Assembly (NCBI GenBank): GCA_949130485.1
Contig: OX422183.1
Location: 9,328,636-9,392,635, forward strand
From: Agelas oroides
Lineage: Eukaryota > Porifera > Demospongiae > Agelasida > Agelasidae
DNA: 64,000 bases
Reading direction: 5' to 3'
Shown here piece after piece: positions 4,997 through 63,174 of this stretch (positions are counted from its first letter, which is position 1; each line of letters opens with the position of its first letter). The translations under genes and the position numbers were made by a program. A model generated the notes under the pieces. It worked only from the letters and a program-made list of their open reading frames with translations, searched no databases and was not told where the DNA came from.

Positions 4997-5055
4997 GTAC
5001 TAGCTGATTGGCAATGCATAAATGCATACTTGGTGGTACTAGCTGATTGGCAATG
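4997..5055 (+). promoter_or_regulatory. Duplicated 20-bp motif with inverted CCAAT boxes at R1 start
   Basis: The word GTACTAGCTGATTGGCAATG occurs twice, once just upstream and once directly at the R1 start codon. Each copy contains GATTGGC, a CCAAT box on the reverse strand. The first copy also has an ATG, which makes a short upstream reading frame. The duplication is plain in the sequence. A promoter or translational role is inference. Confidence 0.4.
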
Positions 5056-8000
5056 AATGAGTTACTTAAAATCGTGAAGATGGCTGCAGCGTCTGTTGTA
5101 AGCTTGAGATTCATCCTCGCAATACTAGCTATAGGTAAGTCATATATGTATACGTATAATTTGATTACGAGTTGATTGCAATCCGCCTCCACTGTACGTA
5201 GCCTAGACCATAAGTTTATATGTCTCTGTATAGGTAATCCTTTGCTAGTCCCTACTGCTAGGTTTGTCTATTAGTGTTGTTGAGTTGCCAACTTGACTGA
5301 ATCAATTGAGTTGAGGCTCACCAGTGTTCTAATGTATAATTGTCATGTTTGTGAAGAATGTAGAGTGGTTATAAAATTTATCGTGCTGTATCAGCTGTAG
5401 TTGTGATACTGCTTTTTCTCCATAGCAGAAACAACTGCAGCAACCAACATAGCCCGCAATGCAACAGCAAGACTTACATGCCGTGGCAAAGTGCCTTATC
5501 CTCTATGGTACATGAATGGAAGCCTGTCTCAGACTCCTCAGTACACAGCTGAAATTGATCGGAGTACTTTGACATTTTTGGGCATACTTGTAATAGATGG
5601 AAATGAAATTTGCTGTGCCATGGACCTCAGATGCACAGTGCATGACCAAATTATGTACACAACCAGACTTACAATTCAAGGTTTGTGGGTAGCTATTTTC
5701 TGTGAGTAGATCAAGGCACTGTATATTAATTTGTCATTCAATTTCAAATTGAAGTAAGGTAATTACCACTACACTACATGCCAACAACTCTCTGGCTAAC
5801 AAAACTGCATATTTGGGCTACATGTATGTACTCTCTTCACTGCTGCCAGAAATATGTATACGAACTCATGTGAGCAGTATCATTTTTTATTTTATTTTTT
5901 TTTTTATTTATAATAATTTTGCATATATAGAGCATGGATACACAAATAGCATGATGCTAATACAAGTGTGGACCCAATGTTACAATTCATATATTTAAAT
6001 GTAGTGGTGTGCATTAAAGAAGTAATATTATACTAGGTATGATATAGGTAGTTAAAAAATACTATTTTAAGGTAGGAATTAATGCATGTTTCTGAAGTGA
6101 ACAGATAATTTACTCTTGAAGTGTTCGGCATCAGGGGAGTCAATTGATCCATCCATGCGATAAACTCTACATCCCATACTTGAAGAACATTATTGTAACA
6201 TGTCTTGCTTTAAGACAAGACATGCCTATTCACTACTACAGTATAGCAAAGTACATACATAAATTTATATAAACACACTACATGCTGCCTGTCATATTGA
6301 ACTGTCCCACGGTAATGTAGGCATCCAGTTGATATAGCATGAATGGAAGTGCAGCCACAACTATATTCATGGCTATAGCTACATGTACCCTACTTTATAA
6401 GTATAACCACCTATGAATACTTGTGGTCCTCTTTTGTAGGTCAACTACCAAATCCTGAGAATGTGACATTCAGTTCTCAGAATTCTTCCACCCAACTTCA
6501 GTGGAAACCCCCTTACTACACAATGAACCAAGAATCAGATATCATACATGTGGACCCAATGATAACACAGTATACAGTGTACACTATAGATGCTTACACC
6601 AGTAGGATGATTAGGAGCATAAACAAGACAGTGACAAGCTTCACAGTCAACAACATTACCCAAAATGGTCATGTCTGTCCCATGTACCAAGTCTCCGCTT
6701 GGAATGCTGGTGGTGAGGGTGAATTGAGTGAACAGCTACAGGAGAGCACACCTCGAGGTAAACTAGCTGGCAGGCTGAACTAATTAACTATATAGGCTCC
6801 TAGCTTTCTCTTCTACTCTCATATCTGTACCTACAGCTCCTCACAAAATTACAGCCGACAATATTACTGTTGCAGTCATAGCAGAATCTAATGCTGTACA
6901 GATTCATATTGATGTATGTTGACATCATTAGCTGTAATTTGAGCTGAACTGTAATTTGAGCTGCACATCTGATCTCATATGCAGGTGGACACTGTCTGTA
7001 TCAGTAGAGTACCAGAGTTGTTTCTTGTCACTTTGATAGCCCCTACGCGACTAGTCATGAAGGAATTTAACATGACACACCAACCAGGACAAGCAGTCGC
7101 AGACTTCACCGTCAGTCTACCCCAGAGTGTGGATGTGTGTTCCCTTCGTGTGAAGATAAGTGCAGGAAACAGTGCTGGAATGTCGGCACCCACTAAAATT
7201 AAAGTTGGTAAGTTACAATTTGGGTTTCACTAATACTTAGATTAAACTGCTATATTCTCTCTAGTTTGTTTAGGTGTCAATTCAACCCCTACAATCACTA
7301 CTTCTGTTGCCAGTACTGCAGTTACAGATGTTGATGACCTTCAGCAAGAAAGCATTACCACATTAATAGGTACGGTTGGGTGCAAAGTACTAAAATAAAG
7401 TTGTATATGTACGCAGACAAGTGCAATCTTATAAGCTATCAACAGTACTAAGTCTTCATTAATTGCTTGTTAATGACATCATCAGGCTACTCAGTTACTT
7501 TTACACTTTTAAATTGGGGGAAGTTCATCAGGCTGTAGTATTAATATTAATTTAAAATCATAAGTTGTTTTTCACTACAGAAGAAAAGAAAATACTGTAT
7601 ACAATACTGTGACCTCCGGTACTGCTACTTCCCAAAACAGAAAGCATAATGTACAAATTGACATAGCACTCTGTAACCACACAAGCACAATGTCCATGTG
7701 AATGTACACATCCTTCTGAAAAAATATTCCAAACACTGGAATGAGATTGCACTGGCTGCCACCTGTGCGCCAAGAATATGAATTAAGTAACTCAGTTCAT
7801 CAATCTGAGACGTGATGCTAAGTGTACTTTAGCTGATCCAACTTGTGAGGCCTTACTGGCTGCTCTCAACTCTTTGTCTTTGTTTTAGCCATAATCGTTG
7901 GAGTCATTGCAATCATTTTTGGAGTGCTGATTGTAGCAGCAACAGTTGGAATCATATGTTGCAGACAACGTAGAAAAGGTGCACACACATCAGTATAAGC

Positions 8001-8444
8001 AATATAGCACCTATATCTGTGTCTTGACTTATATGTTTAAATGTTACAATGTGCCTGAAGGTGTTGCATGTGTGTCTCTATCAGCAATTGTTAATCTATA
8101 CAACCAAGCACAAGGAGAAAGTGTTTATCAGTATGTTTATGTTTGTGACACTAAGAGTGCACAAGGTTAATTAATAGTCTTGTACAATTTTCATTAAGTG
8201 TACATGTAAATTCCATTCAGTGTTTAGTTCGCTACAAAAAAATATGGTATGACTGAGAAATAGTATATACCTCTTCTGTTCATTTTGGACACATTTCTTA
8301 TCTCTCTGTCCAGACCATCTGAAGAAAACCAAAATTAAGATGAAACCCAACCAGGCATATGAGACTGTCACCAGACCTCAGCCTGCAATGCCAGTTCACA
8401 CTGAGCCATGTCCAGCTTATGAAGTTGTCCAGGCTCATCACTGA
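5053..8444 (+). CDS. R1: Ig-FN3-FN3 single-pass receptor, YETV-type tail
   Basis: Likely exons: 5053-5134, 5426-5680, 6440-6757, 6837-6913, 6985-7207, 7265-7369, 7889-7978, 8085-8165 and 8314-8444, giving 453 codons in frame with GT-AG junctions. Exon 1 is a signal peptide. Exon 2 is an Ig-like domain (Cys in ARLTC, Trp in LWYMNG, second Cys in LRCTV). Exon 3 is FN3 (LQWKPP, YQVSAWNAGGEGE). Exons 4-5 form a second FN3 (ISAGNSAGMSAP). Exon 6 is a Ser/Thr-rich stalk. Exon 7 is the membrane span followed by CCRQRRK. Exon 8 holds SVYQYV, which fits the ITIM consensus. Exon 9 has NQAYETV and PAYEVV. A second in-frame ATG at 5080 would shorten the N-terminus and keep the signal sequence. The role is probably cell-surface recognition; ligand and signalling partners are unknown. 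Exon 8 is present only in R1, so its use is less certain. Confidence 0.8.
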
Positions 8445-10481: not shown

Positions 10482-10860
10482 CATACGTCTAACTCACGCT
10501 AATGTATGGGAGTCAATGGGGAAGCCTTGCAGCTGCACGCAGTTTATAAAAAGCCGTATTTTTTACTACAAGTCACGCGAGAATCCGTATCAGTATTGCA
10601 AGTCACGCGAGAATCCGTATCAGGTACTACAAGTCACGCGAGAATCCGTATCAGGTACTACAAGTCACGTGCGCTGTGTCTGTACGTGCAATGAGGTTCG
10701 TATGATAAAATCATTATCACAATAGTACCAAGCTATACCGGAAAAAACATCACTCGTTTGTTGCCGTTGGCATTGTTACTCTTGCTGCGCACTCGTAACA
10801 ATACAGACGGCAACAAACTCGTGATATTTTCCGGTATAGCTTCGTACTATGGTGATAATT
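10482..10860 (+). repeat. Dispersed repeat, copy 1 (forward), left edge of the nest
   Basis: It begins CATACGTCTAACTCACGC and contains a tandem subrepeat of about 29 bp based on AGTCACGCGAGAATCCGTAT, present about four times (10570-10665). It ends in a 135-bp palindromic block (about 10725-10858) whose ends are AGTACCAAGCTATACCGGAA and its near complement. A full-length relative lies in intron 4 of R3 (41148-41440), and an inverted, interrupted copy lies at 14404-16810. The palindromic block may be a separate MITE carried along with the rest. Confidence 0.75.
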
Positions 10861-10870
10861 AGAAACCCAT

Positions 10871-12085
10871 TTGTGTGGTAATGAGGGTAATATTAACTTA
10901 CCTGGTTACATGTGGTTCGGACATAACAGAAAGAGTGTACACAAAAAGGCCTGGAGAGGTTCTGGGGGAGTAGGGGTTTTAGTAGCAAACTATGTTTTAG
11001 AATCTTTCTCAGTTAATATCCTTAGCAATGATTTTGAGGACATACTGTGCATTAGCCTGGTACACACTGCAACGGCAGAAACATTTGGAGTATGTGTAGC
11101 TTATCTTCCACCTAGCAACTCCTCAAGGGGAGACAAAAGCCTGGAATTTGTCAATATAATGCGAATGTTAGTCCTAAAGCTCCATTCGTTTGATAACTTC
11201 ATGATTTGTGGTGACTTTAATGCTAGATGTTCAGACAAACCAGACACCCAAATGTTAGATCATTGTGACACTGTCATACCCCCAAGGCTATCCATTGACC
11301 ATTCTCCTGTCAACAGTCATGGTAGGACAATTTTAGAGTTTCTGATAGATTGTGATCTTTGCATGCTAAATGGGAGATTTGGTGAAAATTCAAACAAATA
11401 TACTTGTGTTTCAACTAAAGGTGCATCAGTAGTGGACTATGTCTTTGTTTCTACCAAACACTTTAAGATGTTTGAGAACTTTAATATTGATTATGTCTCA
11501 GATCTAATTTCACAGAATCAAATAGATGTAGAAAAATTTCCATCTGACCATTCAGTTTTGAGTGGAAGCTTCTGCCTGCATACATCACATAACACAACCC
11601 CCAATACAAATAAGAGTGTAAATGGTTTACAGACCTATACTGCTATAACTACACAACGATTACCAAAAGTTCAAGTACCAGATGATTTTCTCAGCAATCC
11701 TGCTAGTATAGAAGCTCTTAGTTTGCACTTCCAGAATGGCATAGAAAATATTGATCAGGTATATCAATCTTTCTGTAATATTATACTTAAAGAACTTCCC
11801 ATCAAAAGGAAACATACAAATAGAAATAGAACTAGAAAAAAGTGGTGGGACAAAGAATTATCTGTTTTACGATCAAAAGTAAGAAAGGCCTGTAAAGCCT
11901 GGTTAAGAAACAAATCCAATCTAGTCTTAAAACAAGAGTTTGTAAGGGCACAACACAGTTTTGATAGAGCCGTAAGAAGTAAGAAGCGGAGATACATCAA
12001 ATGGAACAAATTACAATTGCTACTAAAACAAAAGAAAAATGTAAAGCAATTTTGGAGGGATATAAAAAAAATTAGGCATCTCTGA
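10871..12085 (+). pseudogene. LINE endonuclease domain, N-terminally truncated
   Basis: This is the remaining part of an exonuclease-endonuclease-phosphatase (EEP) domain that nicks the target DNA for LINE insertion. Visible motifs are GSGGVGVLV near the start, FMICGDFNAR (catalytic Asp and Asn), GASVVDYVFVS and FPSDHSVLSG (the catalytic Asp-His pair). The first part with the catalytic Asn and Glu is missing. The last 100 residues are basic and helical (RNRTRKKWWDKEL onward) and lead into the RT. The frame closes at 12085, just after an A8 run at about 12063-12070. The downstream frame continues the protein, so this end is a one-base slip and not a natural terminus. Confidence 0.88.
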
Positions 12086-12137
12086 AAATAGTAAGGACTC
12101 TCAAATCCCACTTCAGGTACAATTAGAAGATGGTAAC

Positions 12138-13769: not shown

Positions 13770-14714
13770 AAAAATAAACTCATTGATCTAGCAGAAAGAG
13801 TTTGGTTAGACGATCTGCATAGACCAGTTAGAAACTCAGAAAGTGGAGGTAAACTGTATAACTACAAACTAATTAAAAGCTGTGCTGATACTGCCGGTTT
13901 TGTGTTGGCCCCACTCGGCCCTGGCCAGAGATGGGCGATGGCTTCGCTGCGTGCTGGGTGCCTTCCGCTGGCAGTGGAGACTGGTAGATATCGGATTCCT
14001 AAGGTGCCACTAGGGGAAAGGGTGTGTAAATTATGTAATAATTAAAGTTGAGACTGAATTTCATTTTGTGATGGAATGTAGTAAACTACAAAACTTGCGA
14101 AATGAGCTGTTCTTTATTATAACCGAACGAGACCATACTTTTATGCACCTCAATATAACTGACAAGTTTTTATATATTCTTCACTCTGAAATTAATACTT
14201 GTACAATTGCTAAGTTTATTTATAAAATGTATAAATTACGTTGTAGTTTTTTATATCACACTTAACCTCACCTTTTGTCATTTTTTTTTTTTTTCACCAC
14301 ACATTTACAATCACAGTGACTCATAAGTCATAAAACATGGCTGGGCATTTTCAATGCGTGTCACTTAAATAATAAAATTGATTGATTGATTGATTGATAT
14401 ATAGTATCAGCATAGTACAAAGCTATACCGGTGTCTGCGTGAAATGGGGACCCCCGATTTGGGGACCCCGGTCCCCATATCCCTAGTGATATGGGGACGG
14501 GGCCCCCATATCACTAGGGATATGGGGCCCTGGGGTCCCCAGAACTCTGGTGATATGGGGATCGTTCAGTGATTTAGGGACCCTTAAGGTTTGTGTTCTA
14601 TATGCAATTGGAAAAGACATGTAAGAACTAATTAACAAGTTGTGTATATGCGAGAGTAAAATACGCTTACGCAATAGTATGTACAAGTAAAGAACAACAG
14701 TATTATCATTAGTA

Positions 14715-20060: not shown

Positions 20061-20084
20061 ACTGTACAGTACAGTAAACTGATC

Positions 20085-25782: not shown

Positions 25783-28241
25783 ATGCAGGCAGCGACCGGC
25801 CTCATCGTCGCAGTGGTTCTCACTGCGTTTCTGCTGGGATGTTAGTTTCTGCATGCAGCTAAGGAATAAATTATTTATTTGTTTAGTTTCTCGTTTTGAG
25901 CTACGGAACTGATACAGTATGTATAGCATTTGTAATGTAACTCAGTAGATGTCACGAAGCCTTGCATGCATTCTTGCAACACTGAGATACTTTAAATCAA
26001 GTACTTTTTGCATGGATTCCCCACAGGTAACGGGCGCACGGTCTTGACTGTAGCCCACAATACGACAATAAACCTGGTATGCACTGATGGTAGTCGCTTT
26101 CCTACTTGGTTTGTGAATGGGATAACAGTAGGAACAGAAGGTCAATGCAGCAGATCTAGCTTCAGTAATGGTGGAATGGTGACTGCCACACTAACTATTG
26201 ATGGAAATTGTATTTGTGGCACCTTGAATATGCACTGTGAAGCTTACATTGCTGAAGAGCGACAACTTGCGTTCCTGCATAACACTACTCTGACAATTCA
26301 AGGTTAGTTGCAGTCTCAACATTAAATTTTTCTTCTTTCAGGGGTTCTTTATTGATACACTGTGAACCACTATAATCTGAAAATTCACATGCAGGTCACC
26401 TTCCTTCACCTGAAAATGTTCACATCAATGAGACAGACAACATTGAATGGAACCCTCCCTACTCTGCAATGAACAATGATGTCGTACATGTGGACCCTCA
26501 CATCACCCAGTACACTGTATACATTACTGACAATTATACTGGAAACATTGCCAAAGTGAATGTATCAGAAATGCAATTCACTTTTAATACCCAAGATGAT
26601 GGTCTGTGTCCCATTTACCAAGTCTCAGCATGGAATGCTGGTGGTGAGGGTGAATTGAGTGAGCCAGTGCAGGAGAGCACGCCAAGAGGTAAGGAATTCC
26701 TAAACAACCTTTCCACCAGCTTTCACGCTTACTCTCTTACAGTCCCTCACAGTATTACAGCTGAGAATATCAGTGTTGCAGTCACAGAAGAGTCTAATGC
26801 TTTACTGAATATTCACATTGATGTGAGTCTCTTAATTTGATAGATATATAGTTAATTTCTTAATTTGATAGATATATAACAAGAGTTTGTAACAGTAAGA
26901 GTGTGAAACTTTCCATATGCATGGATTCTGCTGCCATCATCTGGGATAGGCAATCGGCAGTAGTGAATGCTTAATGTACACAAGGCCAAAATACAAGTGT
27001 ACAACACTGTACACAAACTGTACGTAAGAACACCACTACAGCTTATCATTATAAGTAGCTGTTACAGCTCGAATGTTAAGGTGGATCTCTTCTATAGGTG
27101 GATACGTTATGCCCCATCAGAATGCCAGAGTTCTTTCTCATCACTCTGATGACCCCTGGTGGAAGCGTTGTCAAGGAATCAAGCATGTCACATGACCAAG
27201 GACAAGCAGTTGCAGACTTCACTATCAGTCTACCTCCAAGTGTGGAAGTGTGCACCCTTCATGTGAGGATCAGTGCAGGAAATAGTGCCGGAATGTCTGC
27301 ACCCAGTGAAGCAGTTGAAGTTGGTAAGTTACATTTTACAAATAAACTGCAGGAAAGTCAGAACCAATTATTTGTTTTCTATACATTAGTTTGTTTGGGT
27401 GGCAACACAGAGTCTACTACTACTGATTCCACCAGTGTGACAGTCTCTCCTACCACTGCTAGTACTGGCGAAAGACAGCAAGGAGACAACACCACACTAA
27501 TAGGTGAAGTGTTACTGAACTGAAATAACTGCTGTACCAATCACTGATTTGGAAAATAACTGTTATTGGAATTTCAACTCTTTGTTTTAGTCATCATCAT
27601 TGGAGTCATTGCGGCTGTTGGGGTGACACTAATTGTGGCAGTTGGGATCATATGTTGTCTGAAACATAAGAGCAAGAACAGTAAAGGTACATCTGAATGG
27701 GCATGCAGTAGAAGTTCTACACAGCTTGCTATGATGTGAAGTAAACATGTGTTTATTCTTCCCATTTTATTAGTAGATCCTTCGGACCAGACTGATAACT
27801 ACTATCCAAAAAGGTTGGCAAAGTGTTACTAACCCATGCATTGATAGTAATACTGATTTATAATCAATGTCTCTAACTGTTTATAGCCCTTCACTTGGTG
27901 GACCAGTACCACTTTACGAACCTCAAGTTACCAGTCATCCTGAAAGCAGTAGTATAACTGACAGTGAAGGGTCAAATGACCACTTACTGCAGCCCAGCAC
28001 ACCAGTTGCTAGAAACCCTGAAAACACTGTACCCAGGACCCAGTCATCAGACACTGCCACAACTCCCTCTTCAACAGACAGTGAGGGGTCAAATGACCAC
28101 CTACTGCAGCCCAGCCCTCCGGCTCCAGTGGAGAGTCCACACCTGGTGTATGCACAGCTTGAGGCAGTGAAACAGACTCAAGTCCTGCCACCAGCCAGTG
28201 ATGACCCTGTGCAGTATGCTCAGATAGAGCACCAAGACTAG
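25783..28241 (+). CDS. R2: Ig-FN3-FN3 single-pass receptor with tandem ITIMs
   Basis: Exons: 25783-25840, 26027-26302, 26395-26688, 26743-26822, 27098-27323, 27390-27503, 27591-27686, 27774-27813 and 27887-28241, giving 512 codons, all in frame at GT-AG sites. Order: signal peptide; Ig-like domain (INLVC, PTWFVNG, NMHCEAY); FN3 (IEWNPP, YQVSAWNAGGEGELSE); second FN3 split by a phase-0 intron; Thr/Ser stalk; membrane helix starting VIIIGVIAAVG; long Ser/Pro-rich tail. The tail has two canonical ITIMs, LVYAQL and VQYAQI, 22 residues apart, close to the end. When phosphorylated, paired ITIMs recruit SH2 phosphatases such as SHP-2; that this happens here is inference. The word TDSEGSNDHLLQPS is duplicated in the tail. 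Exon 8 has a TAGTAG acceptor, so one residue may be optional. A short upstream frame (25726-25782) ends at the start codon. Confidence 0.88.
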
Positions 28242-29366: not shown

Positions 29367-29440
29367 TTTAACCCTCAGTGGTGAGCCTGATCAACAACTG
29401 CATAAGCTAGCTCAGCTTGGAGTTGTGTCATAGACCTGGA
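29367..29440 (-). pseudogene. Receptor tail-exon scrap, reverse strand
   Basis: Reversed, the stretch reads CAAGCTGAGCTAGCTTATGC...CAGGCTCACCACTGAGGGTT, which matches the end of the R1 and R4 last exon (CCAGCTTATGAAGTTGTCCA, then the stop and GAGGGTTGGATG). No other exon of the unit is recognisable nearby, so it is a short relic of a lost copy that faced the opposite way to R2. Confidence 0.5.
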
Positions 29441-31566: not shown

Positions 31567-31649
31567 ACAAATATACTGAAAATGAGATGAAACCCAACCA
31601 AGTGTACAAGACTGTCAGGCCAGCAACACAAATTCACGTTGAGCCATGA
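31567..31649 (+). CDS. Orphan receptor tail exon, possible alternative last exon of R2
   Basis: After a CTCCAG acceptor the frame reads through MKPNQVYKTVRP to IHVEP and a stop. It aligns with the last exons of R1 and R4. A phase-1 entry keeps it open, and the R2 membrane exon (27591-27686) ends in phase 1 on the same strand. It therefore could serve R2 as an alternative short tail that removes both ITIMs. It could also be the last trace of a lost receptor copy. The tail is shorter than in R1 because the stop falls before the second tyrosine motif. Confidence 0.5.
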
Positions 31650-39982: not shown

Positions 39983-42900
39983 ATGTACATGTACGCGGCG
40001 ACTAGTTTCGTTGTCACAGTATCATTTCTGCTGGGATGTAAGTCTGCTAAGAATAAGTACTGTGTAGTTAATCGTATAGTGGACTACCAGTGAATTCTGC
40101 CTTCAACACCAGATGATTATTGCTATACATATTAAACGAAGTCAAAGAATTCATATAGTATGCAGTACATTGTTTGCTATATGCAAAAAAAATAATGAAG
40201 GAATATACAGTAATCACATACATTGGTTATTGTATTTGTACAGAAAGAGAATTTTAAGTCAAATATTTTGATCCATACAGGTTACGGCTGCGATGAAGTG
40301 TTTGTAGCCCACAACACAACAATAAACTTCACATGTACTGATGGCAGACATTATCCTACCTGGTTCGTGAATGAAACAACAGTAGGAACTGAGGGACCTG
40401 GGTACAGAACCACCATCAAGGGAACGGAGGAGGTGGCTGCTACACTAACAGTTAACGGGAATATCATTTGTGATAGTTTGAATATTCATTGTGAAGCTTA
40501 TGTGACTGAAGAGCGGCAATTTTTGTCCATGCACAACACCACTGTGAAAATTCAAGGTTAGTTGCAGTCTTTCTAGAAGCATATCATTTCCCTCCATTGT
40601 TATTTCTTGCTTCTGCACTGATACTCTGTAAACCACTATTGTTCTACAATCTGATCATTTACAGGTCACCTTCCCTCCCCTGAATGTGTTATCATCAGTG
40701 AAGGCATCAACTCCTCAACCATTGAATGGAATCCCCCTTACTCTGCAATGAACATTGAGTCGGACATCATACATGTGGACCCTCACATCACACAGTACAC
40801 TGTGTACATTACTGACAACTATACTGGAAACATTATTGTCAAAGAGAATGTAACAGAGACACAATACACCTTCAATGCTTCAAGGGATGGTTCATGTCTC
40901 ATATACCAAGTCTCAGCTTGGAATGCTGGTGGTGAGGGTGAATTGAGTGAGCCAGTACAGGACAGCACACCTCATGGTAAAAACTTGCTGAACTGATTCA
41001 GGCCTAGACCTTTGACCAGTTTTTAACTGTTGCTCTCTCTTCTTACCTCTATCACAGTTCCTCACAATATTACAATCACAGCAAAACCTGATGATGCTTT
41101 AAATGCTCATATTAACGTGAGTCCACACCTTTAAATACATGTATTTATCATACGTCTAACTCACTCTAATGTATGGGAGTCAATGGGGAGCCCTGCAAAG
41201 CTGCACGCAATTTATAAAATGCCGTATTGTTTACTACAAGTCATGTGAGAATCCGTATCAGTACTGCAAATCACGTGAAAACCCATATCAGTACTACAAG
41301 TCACACAAGAATCTGTATGCATGCTGCATTTAAACGTGCAATGAGGTTTGTATGATAAAATCATTATCACCATAGTACCAAGCTATACCTGAAAAATACC
41401 ATGAGTTTGTTGCCGTTATAGCTTTGTACTGTGGTGATACTTATATAATAGCAAGAGTTTATAACAGTAAGAGTGTACAACTTCAACTCGTGTTCTACTA
41501 CCATTAATATCTGGGATAGGCAATCACCAATGGTAGATAGGCATGTGCAAGTTCAAGTGTACATATTATAAGTTGTGTAAACACTAATAAAATCTTAGAT
41601 GTTTGCATAAAGGTGTGGTTAACTATTAGTAAATGTTGCTATGTTAATCATGCAAGTTTGGTTCTATGGGAGGTCGGTAAAAAGTGGTTAACTACCAATA
41701 GAACTTCGAACTTAACGGTTACGATTGTGACTTTTTTTGCCATAAGATTCAACACTTCCATATTTCAGATTTGGGTTATTTGGGTATCACAACTGTTACA
41801 TGCATCATCATAGAAACATAAACAGCATTAACTAATTGTTTATAGCCTCACCTTTTACAAAAAATGTTCAAACTAACCTTCTATAGGTGGATGTTGTATG
41901 CACCAGCAGAATGCCCGAGTTCTTTCTCATCACTCTGGTGACCTCGGATGGAAGTGTTTTGAATGAAACAACCGTACCACATGAACCAGGACAAGCAGTT
42001 GCAGACTTCACCATCAGTCTACCTCCAAGTGTTGATGTGTGCTCCCTTCATGTGAGGATCAGTGCAGGAAATGGTGCTGGAATGTCGGCACCCAGTGAAG
42101 CAGTTGAAGTTGGTAAGTCCAGTTACTTCAAATAAGTAAATTAGCCTAAGGAGATTTACAACTACGAATTTATGTTCTCTGCAGGTTGTTCAGGTGAGAG
42201 CACAGACTCTGCTGCTACTGCCTCTACTACTATGGCTACTGTTGCTAGTAGTGGGGGTACAAGGCAGCAAGAAGACAGTACCACATTAATAGGTGAAGTG
42301 TTTAGTTACTGAACTTAATTAATGGTTGTGTACATAACCGTTATTGGTTTTCTTATTTGAAAAATTAGTGCCTGCTCTCAATTCTTTTCTTAGTCATCAT
42401 CATCGGTGGAGTCATTGCCGTCATTGTTGTTGGAGTGCTGATCGTGGCAGCAACAATTGGAATCATACTTTATGTCAAACATAATAGAAGAAACAGTAAA
42501 GGTAAATCAAATAATCAGAAATCCTATATAGATTGGTACGAATGTGAACTAGCAAGTATGTGTGTAATGTTTTCTTTTAGTAGATCCCTCAGACCAAACT
42601 GATAACTACTACTCAAAAAGGTATGCAAAATGTTATTACTAAATACAATAGCTTGCTAACCAATCTGCTTTATACCTGGCCACAGCCCGTCACTCGGTGG
42701 ACCAGTACCACTTTACAAACCACCAGTAACTGAGGTGATGTATGTTGCCACTGGGAAACAGAAGATATCAAACTCTGCTAAAACATCACAATCAAGTTTG
42801 CACACAACAGACAGTGAGGGGCCAGATCACTCTGGTGACCTCTTACTACAGTCCAGCCCTCCAGTTCCAGTGGGGAGTCCCCATGTGGTGTATACACAAC

Positions 42901-42986
42901 TTAACGTAAAGTCAACTCGTGTTCAGCCACCAGCAAACAATAACGAAGTGCAGTACATTCAGATAGAACACAATGACAAACTCTGA
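39983..42986 (+). CDS. R3: Ig-FN3-FN3 single-pass receptor with tandem ITIMs
   Basis: Exons: 39983-40037, 40281-40556, 40665-40976, 41058-41116, 41887-42112, 42185-42292, 42394-42501, 42581-42620 and 42686-42986, giving 494 codons in frame. Same plan as R2: signal peptide ending in a Cys codon split by the intron, Ig-like (INFTC, PTWFVNET, NIHCEAY), FN3 (IEWNPP, YQVSAWNAGGEGELSE), split second FN3 (ISAGNGAGMSAP), Ala/Thr/Ser stalk, membrane helix with Gly and Val, tail with VVYTQL and VQYIQI, both canonical ITIMs, 21 residues apart. The Ig exon has exactly the same length as in R2 (276 bp). Intron 4 is enlarged by a dispersed repeat (41148-41440). Exon 8 again has a TAG-TAG acceptor. The gene converges on R4. 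Confidence 0.88.
41148..41440 (+). repeat. Dispersed repeat, copy 3, in R3 intron 4
   Basis: It begins CATACGTCTAACTCACTC and ends near TGTACTGTGGTGATAC, matching 10482-10860 with about three subrepeats and a shortened palindromic end. It is more diverged than the copy at 10482. It lies in the sense direction of R3 and does not touch the splice sites. Confidence 0.8.
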
Positions 42987-44496: not shown

Positions 44497-47400
44497 TCAG
44501 TGATGAGCATGGACAACAACTCCATAAGCTGGACATGGCTCGGTGTGAACTTGTGTTGCAGGCTGAGCTCTGGTGACAGTCTCATATGCCTGGTTGAAGT
44601 GTATCCCAATTTTAGGTTTCTTCAATTTGTCTACAGACATAAGAGCAAAGTATGATGGTCCCACATGCAGCAACACCTGGGACAAGAGTACAACTTTAAG
44701 TAAGTTAAGTGTAGTTACATGGCTTCCAGTGGAAAGTTTGCATTCCCACTTTTTATTAACTGGACAACTGCTTTTTTAAAAAAGAGTTTTGCTACAAGTG
44801 ACAATATAGCTATGTATCATTTGTAGGGATTACAGCTGCATCCCATGTCTAATGCTACTCAAGCTGTCATATATTCTATTCCCTCTTTCTACCTACACAT
44901 TCATAGCCCTTCAAAGCCAAGAAATGCAGTCAATTGTTACTGAAGCATTGCCCACCAGCTTATGGTGTGGTATATCTCATGGAGATTCTTAAAAACAGAA
45001 GCCCCTGTTTCATCAAATAAAGTGGTTGGCTATTCAAAACTGTTCCCAGCAATTTATTAATTGAAGAATTGCTTCTTGCTTATCAATAACTTGCATCTTA
45101 AAATCTCACGCAGGTGCGTGTGTAGTCTCATGCCAAGACTCAGATTACTCACTCAAAAAAAAAAAGAGAAGATATTACGCATACTTTTTCTGTAGCACAC
45201 AATCACAACCGTTGTTGCCACAATCAGCACTCCACCAGCAGCTGCAATGACTCCAACAATGATGACTAAAAAAGAAGAGTTGAGTTATGAGTACTGTCAG
45301 TTTCTAAATTCACTATAAATTGCAACTTGTTAATTAATTAGGGAAAAGGATTTGCTATTGTCTTGAACAGATGCAGGTAGTGACCAGAAAGTTAGCAGTA
45401 CCCAGTATTGTTGTTAAATAAATCAACTGAGAAATCCTTTCACATAGGTTCATAAGTCAGTTTCAGCCTGTTGATCCTCCAGTTTTGTCATGTTCTACAA
45501 CAGCACTTACAGCAGATTTGTGACCTTCACCACAGTCAAATCATTCAGGGTATACCAACCTTACCCAAGGCTTGTAACAGATAATATTTTAGACTGACAC
45601 CCTGATTTTCAGAAATTCCACACTCAGATGATTGAAAGCAAGACAGAAAGCACGAAAGATATTGTGAGTTAGGACTTTGTCTAAAGTTTTTCATTAATTC
45701 AGTGGTGATCAATAGGAATACTAATTCAACTAGCTACTTGTGTGTAATAATGGTACCTATTAGTGTGGTACTAACTCCTTGTTGAGGTTCATCAACACTT
45801 GCATTGCTTCCACTTTGAGTATTGGTAACAGTAGAAACAGTAGTAGTTGTAGTAGTAGTAGTAAAAGTAGTAGAGTCTGTGATGCCACCTGAACAAACTA
45901 AGATGAAATTGTTATTGACTTTTTTTACTGTTGTTAATTCTTAAGTGAAAGGCTTACCAACTTCAACTGGTTCACTGGGCGCAGACATTCCGGCACTGTT
46001 TCCTGCACTGACCCTCACATGATGAGTGCACACATCCACAATCTGGGGCAGACTGAGGGTGAAATTTGCAACTGCTTGTCCTGGGTCATGTGTCATGTTT
46101 GATTCCTTCAAAACTCTTCCAGCAGAGGTCAACACAGTGGTCTGAAAGAACTCTGGCATTCTGCTGGTGCAGACAACATCCACCTGTGGAGGCAGAGATT
46201 AGGTTGAATTTTGAGGTATAGCTAGGTGGCAGCAGTAAAGCAGTACGGCAGACCTTTAAACTGTTATAAACTCTAGCTATTAAAATAAAGGCTATGAACT
46301 CACATTGTCAATGTGAATGGAAACAACATTAGGTTTCACCGTGACTTTAGCAGTGACACTCCTAGTTGTAACATTGTGAGGAACTGTGATAGAGATACAT
46401 TCAGTAAAATCAATTAGGCCTGGCTATAATCACTTCAGCAAGTCCATAAGTTTGTTTTACCCTGAGGCGTGCTCCCCTGTACTGGCTCGGTCAAATCACC
46501 TTCACCACCAGCATTCCAAGCTGAGACTTGGTACATGGGGCATAGATCATCATCTTGAATATTGAAGGTGTATTGTGTCTCTGTTACATTCTCTTTGACA
46601 ACATCTCCAGTATAATTGTCAGTAATGTACACAGTGTACTGGGTGATGTGAGGGTCTATGTGGATAGTGTCATTGTTCATTTCAGAGTAAGGCGGGGTCC
46701 ATTCAATTGTTGAGGAGTTGATGTGAACATTTTTAGGTGAGGAAAGGTGACCTGTCAATGAAATTTTAGACTGAGATGAGTTTTTACTGTGAATACAAAA
46801 GCCCTGGCAAATAACAAAGGAGGAAAATTCTAATTAGCTAGACTGCAACTAACCTTGGATTGTCAGTGTTGTGTTGTGCATCGGCAGGAATTCTTGCTTT
46901 TCAGTGATGTAAACTTCACAGTGGATATTTAAGGTATCACTTATATAGTTTCCATCGATTGTTAGTGTGGCAGTGAGCTCCCTACCAGTATTGATGATAG
47001 ATCTGTACCTATATCCACTTGTTAATACTGTTCTTCCATTTACAAACCAAGTAGGTAGAATGCGACCATTTGGTGCAGTGCATGTGATGTTTACTGTCAC
47101 ATTGTGGGCAACAATTATGGCATCACCACTGAAACCTGTACAGTTGTGATAGTATAATTCATAACTCTAAAAGTAATCGCATACTGAATGGAGGTATTTG
47201 GATTTGTTATTGATTTTTAATTATGCAAGATGAACCAAGTGAATTAAACCATCCAAATTGTAATTGTAATCGAATACATGCTAATGATATAGACCTTATC
47301 AAGTTTTGAATTCTACTAAAATAAGTAGAGCAAGTATTTGTAGCTAAATGTATATGTGTGCAAATTAATTTTATAGCATACACCATTATTGCTCGTATCT

Positions 47401-48641
47401 AATCACTTGACTGGATTGTGGACTGGATTACTGAACTGGACTGCTGGACTGAATTGCTCACGGGATTTAATTTGTTCATATCACATGACTTCTATCTTAT
47501 CAAATGTGCTGAATTTGGTAACATCTGCCTGATTATAAGCTACACTTCATCATCCCACTGCAGGCTAGTGAATGTATAAAGTGCACAATGCACAAGCCCA
47601 TGGAAGGATGTGTACCATGAGTTCATGGTGTACACACAGTGAGCTCACAGCACCCTCTGGCTATAGCAAATACGCACAAGAGCACCAAAAGTACTGACAA
47701 AGGCCACTTTACCAAACAACTGTGCCATGCAGAATGCTGACGTCATGTGCCATACGGGTTGGTAAAAAGTCCAGACATCCAATCCAGCAGTCCAGTCCAG
47801 TGCATGATCCAGTCCACAATCCAGTCCAGCGATTAGACACAACCAGCATTATTGTTGTTACTTTTGCACATTTGCACAGACAATCAGTGAGCTACTACAC
47901 TTTTTACACTGTTTTTCAACCAATCAGTGAGCTATTATGTTGTTTACTGTTGCTCAGTCAATCAGTGAGCATCACACTTTCACACACGTTCAGCCAATCA
48001 TGTTTTGCTCTGTTACTCAGCCAATCAGTGACAGTTGGCTACACTTTTGCATATTTGTTGAGTGTTTCAGTGAGCTATTTCACTTATTGCATTGTTGACA
48101 GTCTGTTCCAGCCCATCAGTGAACTACTACACTTTTTTCGCACTTGTAGTAAGAAAAACTGTCTTGCCTCATGAAGCCAGACTCTCACACATAAAGCAGG
48201 CGTGTCTAGCTTCGTGAGACTACTAGAGCTAAGGAAAGTTGAGCTTCACATTGTCTCTTTCCATCTTACCTTATAGCTGTAAGAGAAAGTAGAGCATTTT
48301 AAGGTGGAGTGGAGATCAAACAGTTGACTCATATAATATAATTATTCCAGCATGCAATTAGCTAGATACGGTTCACTCCATTACACATTTTGGGAATAGA
48401 CTATATTAGGAATAATAAATAGACATTCTGGGACATCACCACCCCTATCATATCATTGCTGCATTTGTAGGAACTTGGTTTTTTTTACACGTGGGCCATC
48501 TGGACCCCCTGCACGAGTTGTTCTGGATCTTCCTGAGAATAATGCACCTAACAAAAAACTGAGAATGAATACAGACATAATTTACTTACCTACAGCTACT
48601 GCTGTGAGGAAGAAGCCCAATACTATAATTGTTGCAGCCAT
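44497..48641 (-). CDS. R4: Ig-FN3-FN3 single-pass receptor, YETV-type tail
   Basis: Exons in reading order: 48641-48590, 47135-46854, 46751-46461, 46383-46304, 46183-45958, 45897-45757, 45265-45185 and 44630-44497, giving 428 codons in frame. Signal peptide MAATIIVLGFFLTAVAV; Ig-like (VNITC, PTWFVNG, NIHCEVY); FN3 (IEWTPP, YQVSAWNAGGEGD); split second FN3 (VSAGNSAGMSAP); a stalk with eight Thr in a row; membrane helix with VIIVGVIAAAGG; tail with FNQAYETV and PAYGVV. NQAY also fits the NxxY shape of PTB-domain ligands. There are no canonical ITIMs. The donor after the membrane exon (AAAA/GTATGC) is less typical. Intron 1 is about 1.45 kb because a TIR element and a tandem repeat lie in it. 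Confidence 0.82.
47398..47840. mobile_element. About 440-bp TIR element in R4 intron 1
   Basis: CTAATCACTTGACTGGATTG at the left pairs with the right end, which reversed reads CTAATCGCTGGACTGGATTG. Pairing runs on through TGGACTGGAT and GGACTGCTGGA, about 60 bp. The inner sequence is unrelated. It shares the GGACTGGA theme with the element at 23975-24744. Confidence 0.75.
47870..48140. repeat. Imperfect minisatellite, CCAATCAGTGAGC units
   Basis: About six diverged units of 40-50 bp each carry CAGCCAATCAGTGAGC or a close variant followed by TACTACACTTTT-like sequence. It lies in R4 intron 1. The unit core contains CCAAT, but promoter activity is not implied. Confidence 0.75.
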
Positions 48642-49571: not shown

Positions 49572-49735
49572 TGCTCATTCACATTTTGGAGTATGTTGAT
49601 GATAACATTGGCAACTCCAGGTCCACGCTGTATGGTCAATTCTCTCAAGGCATTTCCAGCAGAGGTCATCAGAGTGATGAGAAAAACTCTGGTATTCTTC
49701 TGGTACTGGATGCACACATGCATCTGTAGGAGTGT
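49572..49735 (-). pseudogene. Relic of a receptor second-FN3 exon
   Basis: The reverse strand reads NTRVFLITLMTSAGNALREL and GVANVIINILQNVNEH, which aligns with exon 5 of R5 (IPEFFLITLMNTAGNVLNET ... VADFTITVPQSMDVC). The last third of the exon is missing and no partner exons lie nearby. It is an isolated fragment of a lost copy. Confidence 0.65.
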
Positions 49736-52094: not shown

Positions 52095-52740
52095 ATGGCT
52101 ACAACCACTATTGTTTCAGCTTCTTCCTCACAGTAGTAGCTGCAGGTGAGTAAGTTTTGGATATCTGCTGCTCAAAAGAGCTATTTATTATACCGGAGGC
52201 CCATTGGTAAGATGAACAATGAATCAGATGTCATACACGTGAACCCCCACATAACACAGTATACAGTGTACATGTTTTGATGCTTATACCAGGAGAATGA
52301 TGAGAAGTATGAATATGACAGAGACAAGCTTGAAACCCACAAACAATGTACCAGTATGTCCCATGTACCGAATCTCAGCTTGGAATGCTGGTGGTGAGGG
52401 TGAATTGAGTGAGCCAGTACAAGAGATCACACCTCAAGGTAAACAATTAAACCAAGAACTTTCGGAACTGATTAACCAAGTCTTTGCTAACAGTTTCAAT
52501 GACCTTTACCTCTACAAGTGGATGTTGTATGCACCAGCAAAATACCAGAGTTCTTTCTCATCACTCTGATGACCTTGGGTGGAAGAGCTTTGAGGGATTT
52601 AAACATAACACATGACCAACGACAACCAGTTGCAGACTTCACCATCAGTCTACCCCAAAGTGTGGATGTGTGCACTCTTCATGTGAGGATCAGTGCAGGA
52701 AACAGTGCCGGAATGTCTGCACCCAGTGAACCAGTTGGTC
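52095..52740 (+). pseudogene. Receptor pseudogene with deleted Ig domain
   Basis: It starts with a signal-exon copy (ATGGCTACAACC...) similar to that at 62591, but a one-base loss shifts its frame. Intron 1 matches the intron after 62648 (GGATATCTGCTGCTCAA, then TTATTATACCGGAGG) and then runs straight into the middle of an FN3 exon (MNNESDVIHVNPHITQYTVY), so the Ig exon and the start of FN3 are gone. The FN3 part has a frame shift after TVYM. Exon 4 is absent, and the exon-5 copy (52518-52730) has an altered acceptor and donor. No membrane or tail exon follows. A dead gene with several independent lesions. Confidence 0.8.
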
Positions 52741-52949
52741 ACAATTCAATTGGTTACTCAATTTTAAACATTAAAATATCACGAAGATGTGTAGAGATGG
52801 TATGCCAAAAGGTATGTATGCTAAGTACAGATGATAGTATAAAAACAATGGTCAACATATACTAGTATACCATTTAATGTTAAACAGAGTTAACATGTGA
52901 TGAATATAGGAGAGGGACAGGAAGCCCCTCTAATTACCTGGTATTACGC

Positions 52950-53561: not shown

Positions 53562-55931
53562 TCACATTTTGTCTTGATGTTTTAACTGAGCATACTGCAC
53601 ATGATCATCATTGGCTGGTGGTGGGACTTGAGCTTGCTGCACGTTAACTTGTGTGTACACCAGGTTTGGACTGCTGGCTGGAACTGGAGGACTGGGTGGC
53701 AGTAAGAGGTCATCTGACCCCCCACTGACTGTTGAAGGTGAACTTGTAGGTGAGTATGATGCCTGGGTCTGTATTTCGGGAGCCATGGTAACTGATGATT
53801 GTAGTGTTGAAGGGGTGGAGTCTAATGTCTGCATCCAGACTGCAGTATGTTCAGGATCTCTGGCTACTGGTATGCTTGTGGTCTGTTCAGTGGTAACATA
53901 AACTGCCTCAGGTACTGGAAGTTTGTAAAGTGGGACTGGTCCACCGAGTGAAGGGCTGCGGCCAGGTATAATAAATGAATGTGTAACACTAATTATGCCT
54001 ATGTCAGTTCAAGAATCAAGAACAATATTTTTTGCATACCTTCCAGTGTAGTTGTTATCAGTATGGTCTGAGTGTTTTACTAAATGGGAAGATTACACAG
54101 GTTAACCCTTTTAGTCATGCTAAAAGTCAGGTAAAACGCAAATTCCGATGTACCTTTACTGTTCTTGCTCTTATGTTTTAGGCAACACATGATCACAACT
54201 GCCACAATCAGCATTACACCAACAGCTGCAATGACTCCAATAGTGATGGTGACTAAAACAGATATCCAACAATATATAAGTTAGTTACATTTATAGCATG
54301 GAGTTAATACCTATATATACTTCACCTATTAATGCGGTACTGTTTCCTTGCTGACTGTTACCCTCACTCTCACTTCCAGTACTATAACAGTAGAAACAGT
54401 AGTAGCAGAGGCAGTGGTAGTAGAGTCTGTGCTGTCACCTGAACAATCTTATAGTGCAGGGGAAATATTGGTTTTGACTTTCCTGCAGTTTTAGTTCTAT
54501 AGTTATTTAAATTGCAACTTACCAACTTCAACTGCTTCACTGGGTACAGACATTCCTCCACTGTTTCCTGCACTGATCCTCACATGAAGGGAGCACACAT
54601 CCATACTCTGGGGTACAGTGATGGTGAAATCTGCAACTGGTTGTCCTGGTTGATGTTGTCTGGTTTCGTTCAAAACATTTCCAGCAGTGTTCATCAGAGT
54701 GATCAGAAAGAACTCTGGTATTCTGCTGGTGCATACAACATCCACCTGTAGAACACAACAGCAATCAGGTTGAGCATTGACGTCGTGTATCAACTACTTG
54801 TGTAAAGGATTCATGAACTCACATTATCGATGCGGATGTGTACAACATTAGGTTCTACTGCACTTCTTCTAACAGTGATACTCTCAACTATAACATTACG
54901 AGGAACTGAAATAGAGATACAGAAGAGCAAGAATGAAATGTGGTGAAGAGCCAATAATCCAGTCAGAAAGTTCTTAGCTTGCGTACCTATAGCAACAGTA
55001 AAAGCTGGGTGGCGGAAGGTCTAGGATATCCTTAGCTTGCTTACCTTGTAGTGTGTTATCCTGTGCTGGCTCACTCATTTCACCCTCACCACCAGAGTTC
55101 CAAGCTGAGACTTGGTACATGGGACACAGATCATCATCATCTCGAATATTGGGGGTGAATTGTGTCTCTGTCACATTTTCTTTGACAATAATGTTTCCAG
55201 TATAATTGTCAGTAATGTACACAGTGTACTGGGTGATGTGAGGGTTCACACTGATGATGTTTGACTCATTGTTCATTGCAGAGAAAGGTGGTTCCCATTC
55301 AATGGTTGAGGAGTTAAAGTGCTCTTTGATATGTACATGTTCAGGTGAGGGAAGGCGACCTGTGAATGTCAAGGTTTTAGAAGTAGTTGGTTTACAATGC
55401 ATTGATGTAAAAGTCCATGCCAAATAACAGAAGAACTTGAAGAATGCAACCAACCTTGAAATCTCAGAGTAGTGTTGTGCATGTGAACAAATTGTCGTTC
55501 AGTGGTGTTATAAACTTCACAGTAGACATTCACAGTTTCACAAGTGAGGTTGCCGTTGATCGTTAGTTCGGCAGTTTTGTCCACACCATTACTGGTGCTC
55601 ACTCTGTATCCGTCTCCCCTCGTTGCTACATACGTTTCATTCAGGAACCAATCTGGCGCATGACGACCACTTGTAGTGCATGTGAGGTTGATTGTTGTAT
55701 TGTGGGTAACAATCACGACATCGCCGCAGACACCTGTACGTATCCAAACATCAATTAACATTAATTTTATTTCTGCACAACACATCATTTCAACTCAGAG
55801 AGACAAATCATGCAGTAAGTCATGCAATTGGATTTGTACACAGCTACGACAGGTACAGTTTTAGCAGCATGCAGAAACTAACAAGAAATTGGGAAGATAA
55901 GGATGAGGATGAGACCGGTCACCGCGGGCAT
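53562..55931 (-). CDS. R5: ITIM receptor with a frame shift in the stalk exon
   Basis: Exons in reading order: 55931-55883, 55733-55455, 55359-55045, 54905-54823, 54745-54523, 54447-54326, 54252-54154, 54079-54040 and 53955-53562. The plan matches R2: signal peptide, Ig-like (INLTC, APDWFLNET, NVYCEVY), FN3 (IEWEPP, YQVSAWNSGGEGEMSE), split second FN3 (ISAGNSGGMSVP), stalk, membrane helix close to that of R2, tail with LVYTQV and VQYAQL, both ITIMs, 21 residues apart. The stalk exon is 122 bp, not a multiple of three, because a base is missing near GTTATAGTACTGG. As written, the protein would end shortly after, before the membrane. Everything downstream is intact, so the lesion is recent, a polymorphism or a sequencing error. 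If real, it predicts a secreted receptor ectodomain. Confidence 0.8.
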
Positions 55932-61256: not shown

Positions 61257-61582
61257 CAGTGGCGACCTCATGGTTGCAGTAGAGTTACATGAACTGGACC
61301 AGCTGATGCTTTTCTACCTACCTGGTTTGATCAGAACAGTGGCTCTATTGAGGATCTTTTCAGTGTGAATTAACTGGCATTTTATACGCGCTAGCTGTGG
61401 AAGCCATATAACTACCTACATCTTCTGTGCCATCTTCTGTTCTATTTTCAGACAATTTGAAGAAGCATGAAATTGAAATGAATCCCAATGTGTACGAGAC
61501 TGTCACCAGACCTCAGCCTGCAATGCAAGTTCACACTGAGCCATGTCCAGCTTATATGGAGTTGTTCATGCTCATCACTGAG
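61257..61582 (+). pseudogene. Receptor relic: part of Ig exon plus tail exon
   Basis: After a CATGCAG acceptor, GTATCAGTGGCGACCTCATG resembles the start of the R4 Ig exon, and CTTTTCTACCTACCTGGTTT resembles the PTWF stretch of R2 and R3; the frame is broken between them. The last exon follows at 61452 (NLKKHEIEMNPNVYETVTRP), well conserved up to EPCPAY, then shifted in frame by a small insertion so that the normal stop is missed. The FN3, stalk and membrane exons are gone. Confidence 0.7.
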
Positions 61583-61599: not shown

Positions 61600-61935
61600 T
61601 CCTGTGGTCTTGTTGCAAAATAGGGTCAGGACACCTTCACTGAGGAAACTGGGGTCTAATTATAAAGTGTATCGGCATGTTGTCGCACCAATCAGATTGC
61701 TCAGGGAAGTGAATTACGCTTATATACGTCATCACAGATAGACAACTTGCAGATTTTTGGACACCAAAACTTATGCTACTAGTAACTGATAACACAGTTA
61801 ACACCTACAATTACTGACCACTGTATGTGAACTTACCCCAGTATTTCTAGTGAAAGTGCCTATTTTAAGTATTTTTCAACAAGGCCACAGGGTGCGTCTG
61901 AAAAATTTGGTCTAGGAAGGAGATTATATCACTTC
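61600..61935. mobile_element. Degraded, inverted relative of the 35788 MITE
   Basis: The order AAATAGGGTCAGGACACCTT, ATCGGCATGTTGTCGCACCA, CAATCAGATTGCTCAGG and GGCCACAGGGTGCG...AAAAATTTGGTCT matches the MITE at 35788-36156 in the opposite direction. One terminal repeat is lost and the rest is diverged. Confidence 0.7.
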
Positions 61936-62590
61936 AAGATCATAGCTACCCCAGGGCTGTGAAAGGTAGCTAGCTGCATATATACCCATTCAAGTTCTAG
62001 ATAGCAATCTACAGTGAACTTGTGCACTTTGGTACATACTGTGGTAAATGGAACCTTTCATTTCTTTTCTTTACATATCAACTAGCTAGATGTTGATGGT
62101 GAAATATGTGGACCTATAATACACGGAGCTTTATTACATGTAGCTTGTTTTCTGGCATGACTGATGGGTCTCCCCCTTGACTGGTGGCCCCCTTGCATGA
62201 TTGGCATGGACTTATGGTACACTATAGCTATAACTTTCTTGCATGATCTAATTGTGTCCCTCTCCCTTTAGGTTATACATTTTGAAGCAAACTGCCCTTC
62301 AAGATGTTCACAGAACCTACAGTGACCAGGGCCAATGCTCATCACAAATAGCTCTGCCTAAATATGTAAGATAGTTAAACCCACCACAATAAGTGTCTGC
62401 ATGTATCAACAGGCAAACACATGAGATATCAAGGGTTTTTGCTGTCTAACTATAGCACTATGACATGCTCGTAAATGAAGCAATTTATGACATCATTGTG
62501 GTGCAGTAGAGATATTCATTGGCCAGGGTCAAAGGTATGAACTGTGACCTACAATAGTAGCTACTGGGAAAGAGGACGTCATAATGCAAG

Positions 62591-63174
62591 ATGGATGCAA
62601 CAACAAAGATTGCTTTGGGCTTCTTCCTCACAGCAGTAGTAGCTGCAGGTGAGCAAGTGTTGGGTATCTGCTGCTCAAGAGAGCTGTTTATTATACTGGA
62701 GGTCCAGTCTTGAACAGAGATCTATATGGCCATATGTATACCACATAAGCTAGGAGAGACTTTGCAGTTATATCCTGCAATGCACAGGCATGAAAGGATG
62801 GTAGTCTTATTGTCTCACAAATAGCCTTGTACCCAGGTTCCTCCCCAGCCTGGGTATGAGGCTATTTTCCTGTGTAGGCTATGGTGCTTTTTGGGGCCTG
62901 TTTTGTTTACATCTATTGACTATATTGCTTTAGCATGAACTTTACTTTTGTGAGCTTTGCAGATGTTGTCAGCATTGCAAAGAACAGATTAAACGCATTG
63001 ATTTTTGGGAGTGGTTCTTCAATAATGTCTATTGCATTCACAGACAGTACCAAAGTGCCAGAGCAAGACTACAAATTTAGCAAGAGACTAACACCAAATT
63101 CTGTTTGCATTTGTGTTGATATGTGTTACAAACAGCCTGTTGATAGTAAAAGCTTCAGTGGTCTTAACAGTTGA
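62591..63174 (+). CDS. Possible short secreted protein headed by a receptor-family signal exon
   Basis: Exon 1 (62591-62648) encodes MDATTKIALGFFLTAVVAA, a clear signal peptide like that of R4, and ends in phase 1 at GTGAGC. The next phase-compatible piece is 62963-63174 after a TTTGCAG acceptor. It reads VVSIAKNRLNALIFGSGSS and then NSVCICVDMCYKQPVDSK to a stop, giving 89 codons in total. The opening VVSIAKN is weakly like the VVIVTHN that starts the R5 Ig domain, but no Trp and no second half follow. Either this is a small secreted product, or exon 1 belongs to a receptor that continues past the window. Exon 1 is secure; the join is not. Confidence 0.45.
62822..62864. repeat. 43-bp hairpin in the intron after 62648
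   Basis: TAGCCTTGTACCCAGG pairs with CCTGGGTATGAGGCTA with three mismatches. A member of the CCTCGTACCCAGGC hairpin family, here inside a probable intron. Confidence 0.7.

Follow-up and report, generated by a model that had tools for sequence, protein, structure and literature searches.

The window analyzed here, a stretch of 64,000 nucleotides from the sponge Agelas oroides (C1:9328636-9392635, in an assembly of 259 Mb and 141 contigs), contains five genes for predicted membrane receptors, which belong to a family extending far beyond the window. Their ectodomains, an immunoglobulin (Ig) domain followed by predicted fibronectin type III (FN3) domains, are joined to one of two tails: the A tail carries immunoreceptor tyrosine-based inhibitory motifs (ITIMs), which serve as an off switch in immune cells of mammals, the B tail a YETV-type tyrosine motif. 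Genes with A and B tails repeatedly face each other tail to tail and have similar ectodomains. The best reading of these data, and a rather probable one, is that of paired receptors in a cluster shaped by gene birth and death; the A tails would recruit an SHP-type phosphatase and the B tails would have another, possibly activating, output. A preliminary description of the window, made from the letters of the DNA, had proposed Ig-FN3 receptors with ITIM tails, accompanied by relics, in a cluster resembling paired receptors of an early-branching animal. All of this was retained, except that one of the genes, R5, proved not to be intact.

Receptor Genes and Their Two Tails

The five genes were assigned to the designations R1 to R5 of the preliminary description by their order along the window. 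Five nearly complete paralogues with one exon plan had been claimed, and all five genes follow such a plan. R1 to R4 have open, GT-AG spliced frames and share one phase plan, with exons for a signal peptide, a V-like Ig domain, a predicted FN3 domain (FN3-1), a weak second one (FN3-2), a stalk, a membrane span and a tail. The introns of the ectodomain are in phase 1, with the exception of a phase-0 intron within FN3-2. R1 (5080..8444, plus strand) consists of eight exons with consistent phases, recognized by exon hidden Markov models (HMMs), and encodes 417 amino acids ending in a B tail. R2 (25783..28241, plus strand; 512 amino acids) and R3 (39983..42986, plus strand; 494 amino acids) consist of nine exons each and have A tails. 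R4 (44497..48641, minus strand), the convergent partner of R3, has eight exons and a B tail. Its signal-peptide exon (48590..48641, minus strand; MAATIIVLGFFLTAVAV) was picked from several candidates by its hydrophobicity and its GTAAGT donor. With this exon the frame is open for 428 amino acids. The idea that R4 lacks a start was rejected.

R5 (53562..55931, minus strand) contains all nine exon types and an A tail, but its frame is broken in the stalk exon (54326..54447, minus strand), which is 122 nt long (2 mod 3); the stalk exon is phase 1-1 in the other four genes. As the eight remaining exons join into an open frame of 493 amino acids, in-frame exon skipping may rescue the gene; otherwise R5 may be a young pseudogene, or the break an assembly slip.

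The terminal tandem ITIMs described earlier for R2, R3 and R5 were all found, using the motif [ILVS/T]xYxx[ILV] in the cytoplasmic tail behind the membrane span. The ITIM tail exon of R2 (27887..28241, plus strand) encodes LVYAQL (28143-28160) and, 22 residues on, VQYAQI (28209-28226). In R3 (42686..42986, plus strand) VVYTQL (42885-42902) and VQYIQI (42948-42965) are 21 residues apart, as are LVYTQV (53646-53663) and VQYAQL (53583-53600) in R5 (53562..53955, minus strand). The last ITIM tyrosine lies 7-9 residues from the C-terminus. The second tail, absent from the preliminary description, was identified in R1 and R4. It reads NQAYETV, followed 20 residues on by CPAYEVV or CPAYGVV, and is without an ITIM. 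In the tail exon of R1 (8314..8444, plus strand), these motifs are located at 8349-8369 (NQAYETV) and 8409-8429 (CPAYEVV).

Genome-wide, A tails gave 10 matches, all on C1, and B tails 21, with 19 on C1 (one of them a relic at 61.5 kb of the window) and two on C12. Twelve of these B tails were read, and all but this relic retain the core NQxYET[VI] (11 of 12); the residues around the second tyrosine fit YxxV in 10 of the 11 tails for which it was listed. Beyond the 21 matches, shorter B pieces were found at 31.6 kb of the window (NQVYKTV) and in L035 (NQAYETV). Another, Ser/Thr-rich kind of tail may be present in the minus-strand family genes g02 and g05 (L014-L015, L020), and no tail was seen in the examined stretch around a further gene, g10. 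The two matches on C12, a chromosome-size contig, lie at C12:8972722-8976004, with an SH2 match some 14 kb away (C12:8958216); another receptor family on C12 may share the B tail.

Family Extent and Convergent A/B Pairs

The family is larger than first claimed and spans 1.46 Mb of C1, with 27 FN3-1 loci between 9.088 and 10.546 Mb, one of which is a relic in the window; FN3-1 was found on C1 only. They represent 32 matches, from which three distant ones (C1:11.32-11.41 Mb, 37-44% identity) were removed and in which two genes split over separate matches were counted once each; the distant matches are possibly an older branch of the family. The exon FN3-2b gave 27 matches and Ig, with one query, 20; as all genome-wide family counts come from single queries, they are lower bounds. 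The signal exon at 62591..62648 of the window (plus strand; MDATTKIALGFFLTAVVAA) is probably part of the gene that follows, with its Ig exon beginning at C1:9393710, past the window end.

For five of the 10 A tails, a convergent B tail lies within 4.1 kb, a limit chosen after the positions had been seen. The tail pairs are located on C1 at 9240628/9241590, 9268135/9268637, 9371418/9373135 (R3/R4), 9432138/9436135 and 9506796/9507995. When the eight A tails in the dense part were placed at random, 4 of 20,000 placements reached such pairing. Further facing arrangements are formed by R2 and a short B-tail match, by R5 and a relic ectodomain, and by the B gene of L037 and an A gene that is cut short.

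The Ig exons of five A/B pairs are 57-98% identical, compared with a mean of 39% over all pairs, while the tails differ. A near-identical ectodomain on different tails was found in the L031 pair (98% in Ig, 95% in FN3-1 and 89% in FN3-2b) and in the L037 pair (80% in Ig, with an identical membrane-span exon and the A tail cut short). Less alike are the L035 pair (63% in Ig, rank 4 of 22 from both sides), the g06B/g07A pair (62%) and R3/R4 (57%, mutually nearest by identity). The similarity includes the introns, with the main inverted arms reaching 84-97% in L031, L035 and L037, and shorter stretches 70-100%; the arms of R3/R4 reach 72-76%, plus 79% over 73 nt. In a tree of Ig, FN3-1 and FN3-2b, the tail label changes 7 times, compared with 6.84 times after shuffling, so that tail type is independent of ectodomain ancestry. 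This count covers 20 genes (9 A, with the cut-short gene of L037 entered as A, and 11 B) and leaves out three genes of unassigned tail type as well as two A genes and a relic lacking an Ig exon. We infer that the inverted repeats undergo conversion or exchange, which keeps the ectodomains alike; the same layout would arise if an ancestral B-A pair had been duplicated in tandem. Together with the SHP-like loci described below, the convergent neighbours with similar ectodomains and different tails make the likeness to paired-receptor clusters stronger than had been stated.

Domains and Evolution of the Ectodomain

The profile of 22 Ig exons matched Ig domains in the PDB, with SYG-2 as the best match (E=9e-8), followed by antibody light chains and SIRPA. 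W29, L57, N62 and C72 are invariant in the alignment, in keeping with an Ig fold, which has cysteines in strands B and F and a tryptophan in strand C; the first cysteine is missing in 4 of the 22 rows. For the Ig exon of R4, an AlphaFold2 model reached a predicted local distance difference test score (pLDDT) of 87.5, and its nearest folds were V domains of antibodies and T-cell receptors, with template-modeling scores (TM-scores) up to 0.77 among the 50 structural matches listed. Profile, model and PDB matches thus agree in predicting a V-like member of the immunoglobulin superfamily.

The Ig-FN3-FN3 plan proposed earlier is borne out for the Ig domain, less firmly for FN3-1 and weakly for FN3-2. 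The FN3-1 profile matched the FN3 domain of LAR (E=3e-5), as well as titin and neogenin; the domain is below the Pfam cut-off and its AlphaFold2 model is poor (pLDDT 52.9). For FN3-2 the best PDB match has an E-value of only 0.14, and the sequence character weakly suggests an FN3 domain. The stalk is predicted to be Thr/Ser-rich, and the membrane spans of R1 to R5 comprise 24-28 residues without a charged one.

The ratio of nonsynonymous to synonymous substitutions (dN/dS) is highest in the Ig exon, with a median of 0.80 (82 pairs, 19 above 1), compared with 0.41 for FN3-1 (144 pairs, none above 1) and 0.55 for FN3-2b (160 pairs, two above 1). The values were calculated according to Nei-Gojobori for pairs with a dS of 0.02-0.8, with related pairs treated as independent, and therefore give a ranking of exons and not a test. 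By this ranking, the Ig tip is the putative ligand-facing part. Outside this genome, the search for homologues gave one protein (P0001) at E ≤ 0.01 among the best 8000 candidates of a database of about 5.8 billion proteins. None was found in genome_contigs and viral_contigs, from which other records of the same genome were perhaps excluded.

SHP-Like Phosphatases

Possible partners of the ITIM tails are encoded in the same genome, in which 97 matches to SH2 domains and at least 180 matches to tyrosine phosphatases (150 of 330 candidates scored) were obtained. Collinear exon matches in the order SH2-SH2-phosphatase-phosphatase were found at five places at least; C28 has one, and a stretch of about 85 kb on C3 has four. 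Several of these matches are partial. The pieces of C28 compared with homologues were the C-terminal SH2 and the phosphatase, and the former matched PTPN11 (SHP2) at 3.9e-60. By these collinear matches and the PTPN11-like SH2 piece, the genome is predicted to encode a tandem-SH2 phosphatase.

The catalytic P-loop is intact on C28 (HCSAGIGRTG) and in two copies on C3 (HCSAGVGRTG and HCGAGIGRTA). In the array of four on C3, two copies (L029, L036) have lost a catalytic residue and read HCSAGVGHTG (Arg to His) and HSSEGIGRTG (Cys to Ser); it might be speculated that such inactive copies serve as decoys. A further group of SH2 matches is located at C3:1378738-1383830. Very many matches to tyrosine-phosphatase exons at C1:6.41-6.99 Mb and on C12 suggest a large expansion.

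Proposed Mechanism and Alternative Explanations

In the proposed mechanism, the V-like Ig tip would meet a ligand. The ITIMs of the A tail, when phosphorylated, would engage an SHP-type phosphatase through its tandem SH2 domains and damp signalling, and the B tail, with NQxYETV and a second tyrosine mostly in YxxV, would recruit different SH2 proteins and have a different, possibly activating output. In the tail-to-tail inverted A and B genes, conversion could even out the ectodomains, with the tails staying distinct, and paired ectodomains would let one ligand specificity feed two outputs. The steps beyond the anatomy of the genes are modelled on vertebrate and ascidian systems; phosphorylation, SHP binding, the sign of the outputs, gene conversion, a ligand and a role in self/non-self recognition or microbe sensing are all putative.

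Several observations weigh against this reading. Among the A tails, that of L035 has one canonical ITIM, the first reading GVYAEV, that of L033 has lost both ITIM tyrosines (LVF and VQH), and that of L037, additional to the 10, stops after about 30 residues. The g06B/g07A pair is not close in FN3-1 (62%, rank 13 and 12 of 25) or in FN3-2b, three neighbour pairs without an assigned tail type share just 29-47% identity in Ig, and no FN3-1 match was found beside the B tail at 9268135. The Ig tree groups R3 with R2, both A genes (support 0.76), although R4 is nearest to R3 by identity. The phosphatase piece of C28 is closer to two-domain receptor tyrosine phosphatases (6.7e-33) than to PTPN11 (5e-28). 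R1 and R4, which have B tails, possess uncharged spans that do not fit activation through adaptors with an immunoreceptor tyrosine-based activation motif (ITAM) as in vertebrates, and because of these spans the B proteins are not activating receptors of the vertebrate charged-span kind. Finally, strand and tail type are correlated, and shuffling of the tail labels reaches the observed pairing in 396 of 20,000 cases (about 2%), so the pairs may descend from the duplication of one ancestral pair.

This last point also fits the explanation that tandem inverted duplication produced the A/B pairing incidentally and that both tails are inhibitory or serve trafficking only. It agrees with the uncharged spans of R1 and R4 as well, and with the YxxV context of the second B tyrosine, a context that may be acceptable to the SH2 domains of SHP as well. 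We consider it possible but unlikely, as the B core is conserved in nearly all tails read and lacks the aliphatic residue at position -2 of an ITIM. That the ITIMs themselves are chance matches is highly improbable and was rejected. In a six-frame search of the window, the motif alone gives 3 matches compared with a mean of 1.0 and a maximum of 4 in 60 first-order Markov shuffles, which would leave room for chance. In their context, however, the ITIMs are beyond chance: the exons that encode them are homologous, in frame and placed after a membrane span, and eight of the 10 paralogous tails have both in canonical form, despite a tail middle that varies in length and sequence.

Concerning the role of the receptors, they could be homophilic adhesion molecules, as in sponge cell sorting, with ITIMs that tune adhesion in the manner of CEACAM1 or PECAM1 and no immune system involved. 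The Ig-FN3 ectodomain does resemble adhesion receptors, and SYG-2 and LAR are the best profile matches, but two tails on similar, once near-identical, ectodomains, the fast evolution of Ig and the presence of relics are more usual in recognition receptors than in housekeeping adhesion, which makes this explanation rather unlikely. A role in sensing microbes or symbionts, in which the inhibitory arm would provide tolerance, instead of allorecognition, has a somewhat better but still minor chance. Vertebrate paired receptors often face pathogens, and the single V-like Ig tip shows the weakest constraint among the exons compared. The reading as paired receptors can also be extended to a natural killer-type logic in sponges, in which one ectodomain is carried on ITIM and YETV tails throughout the 1.46-Mb complex and homogenized by conversion across inverted repeats, inactive decoys in an expanded SHP-like set compete for the ITIMs, and the whole would supply the receptors long sought for self/non-self recognition in sponges. 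This extension is doubtful.

Relation to Known Receptor Systems

Like the vertebrate KIR, LILR/PIR and SIRP families, the cluster joins ectodomains that are nearly the same to tails of inhibitory and of non-inhibitory type, has C-terminal tandem ITIMs and occurs together with SHP-type phosphatases. The activating partners in vertebrates pair a charged span with an ITAM adaptor, whereas R1 and R4 have uncharged spans and a tyrosine tail of their own, and the likeness seen between the ectodomains is that of the Ig fold. Sponge aggregation factors, candidate self-recognition molecules, are components of secreted proteoglycans, whereas the proteins predicted here are membrane receptors with Ig and ITIMs. 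Sponge Ig proteins are described as adhesion molecules in a published account (PMC11999971). No report of sponge ITIM receptors was found among the open-access papers listed, covered mostly by titles and the openings of abstracts, with few subscription papers and bioRxiv preprints.

Closest in layout are the fester co-receptor (FcoR) genes of the fuhc locus of the ascidian Botryllus schlosseri. According to a 2025 review (PMC12065747), these encode ectodomains of a V-type Ig, a sushi and two C2 Ig domains, carry ITIM, hemITAM or YxxI/L/V core motifs and occur as paired genes. Both systems have clustered type I Ig receptors, ITIM versus YxxI/L/V tails, paired genes and birth and death; a shp-1 homologue is among the expressed genes of Botryllus (PMC12065747), and SHP-like loci are present in the genome here. 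In Botryllus, however, the ectodomain includes sushi and C2 Ig domains, compared with the profile matches to Ig and FN3 obtained here, of which the second FN3 is weak. The Botryllus pair consists of FF and FcoR, whereas both members belong to one family here and combine similar ectodomains with different tails. Nor is the cluster described here known to be linked to fusion. The Alr allorecognition candidates of Hydractinia, another early-branching animal, contain ITIM or ITAM motifs (PMC12065747), and are likened to the cluster by this description of their motifs. According to the same review, sponges, cnidarians and ascidians have candidate allorecognition proteins that are not conserved, and the invertebrate mechanisms are a "complete mystery" (PMC12065747).

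If the reading as paired receptors is true, ITIM/SHP signalling in clustered paired Ig receptors would be as old as the sponge lineage or have arisen there independently, and the receptor side of sponge recognition would become directly testable. The convergent pairs, with like ectodomains and unlike tails, also form a natural experiment on the upkeep of receptor pairs.

Mitochondrial Contig

The assignment of the window to an early-branching animal is borne out by contig C141 (L045). Its COX1 gene has to be read with TGA as tryptophan and is divided into two parts about 1.2 kb apart. The gap was interpreted as an intron, because a frame resembling a LAGLIDADG endonuclease (by eye) lies between the parts. 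The contig also contains tRNA-Ser(UGA), tRNA-Ala and tRNA-Cys, followed by a frame read by eye as nad1. We take this layout to fit demosponge and not cnidarian mitochondrial DNA, as the latter keeps very few tRNAs, and C141 is presumably the mitochondrial contig of the host. A second COX1 match, without an internal TGA, was found at C107:16176-16808, and the assembly may therefore hold DNA of another organism.

Relics and Other Elements of the Window

Relics of the family, as described earlier, were recovered at five places by blastn or exon HMMs. A short sequence at 29375..29408 (minus strand), convergent with R2, matches the B-tail end (blastn, 85% over 34 nt, E=1e-5) and is possibly a relic. 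B-tail relics identified by the exon HMMs lie at 31569..31646 (plus strand), reading NQVYKTV, and at 61452..61581 (plus strand), reading NPNVYETV. An FN3-2b exon relic was found in the same way at 49574..49723 (minus strand). A relic gene at 52143..52742 (plus strand), convergent with R5, consists of broken FN3-1 and FN3-2b exons.

Furthermore, an element of the long interspersed nuclear element (LINE) type was identified at 10859-13769 (plus strand), with endonuclease and reverse transcriptase frames that overlap in different reading frames. It is followed by a foldback element at 14713-15848 with arms of 527 nt, which are 99% complementary, and a spacer of 82 nt. A frame similar to that of the foldback element recurs at C1:9238.7-9239.7 kb. 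Adjoining the foldback element, a fragment at 15952-16257 (minus strand) shows a weak match to an Ulp1-type peptidase C48 (E=0.005). Tandem repeats with units of 16 nt and 30 nt are located at 20041-20280 and 25251-25473, respectively, the latter just upstream of R2.

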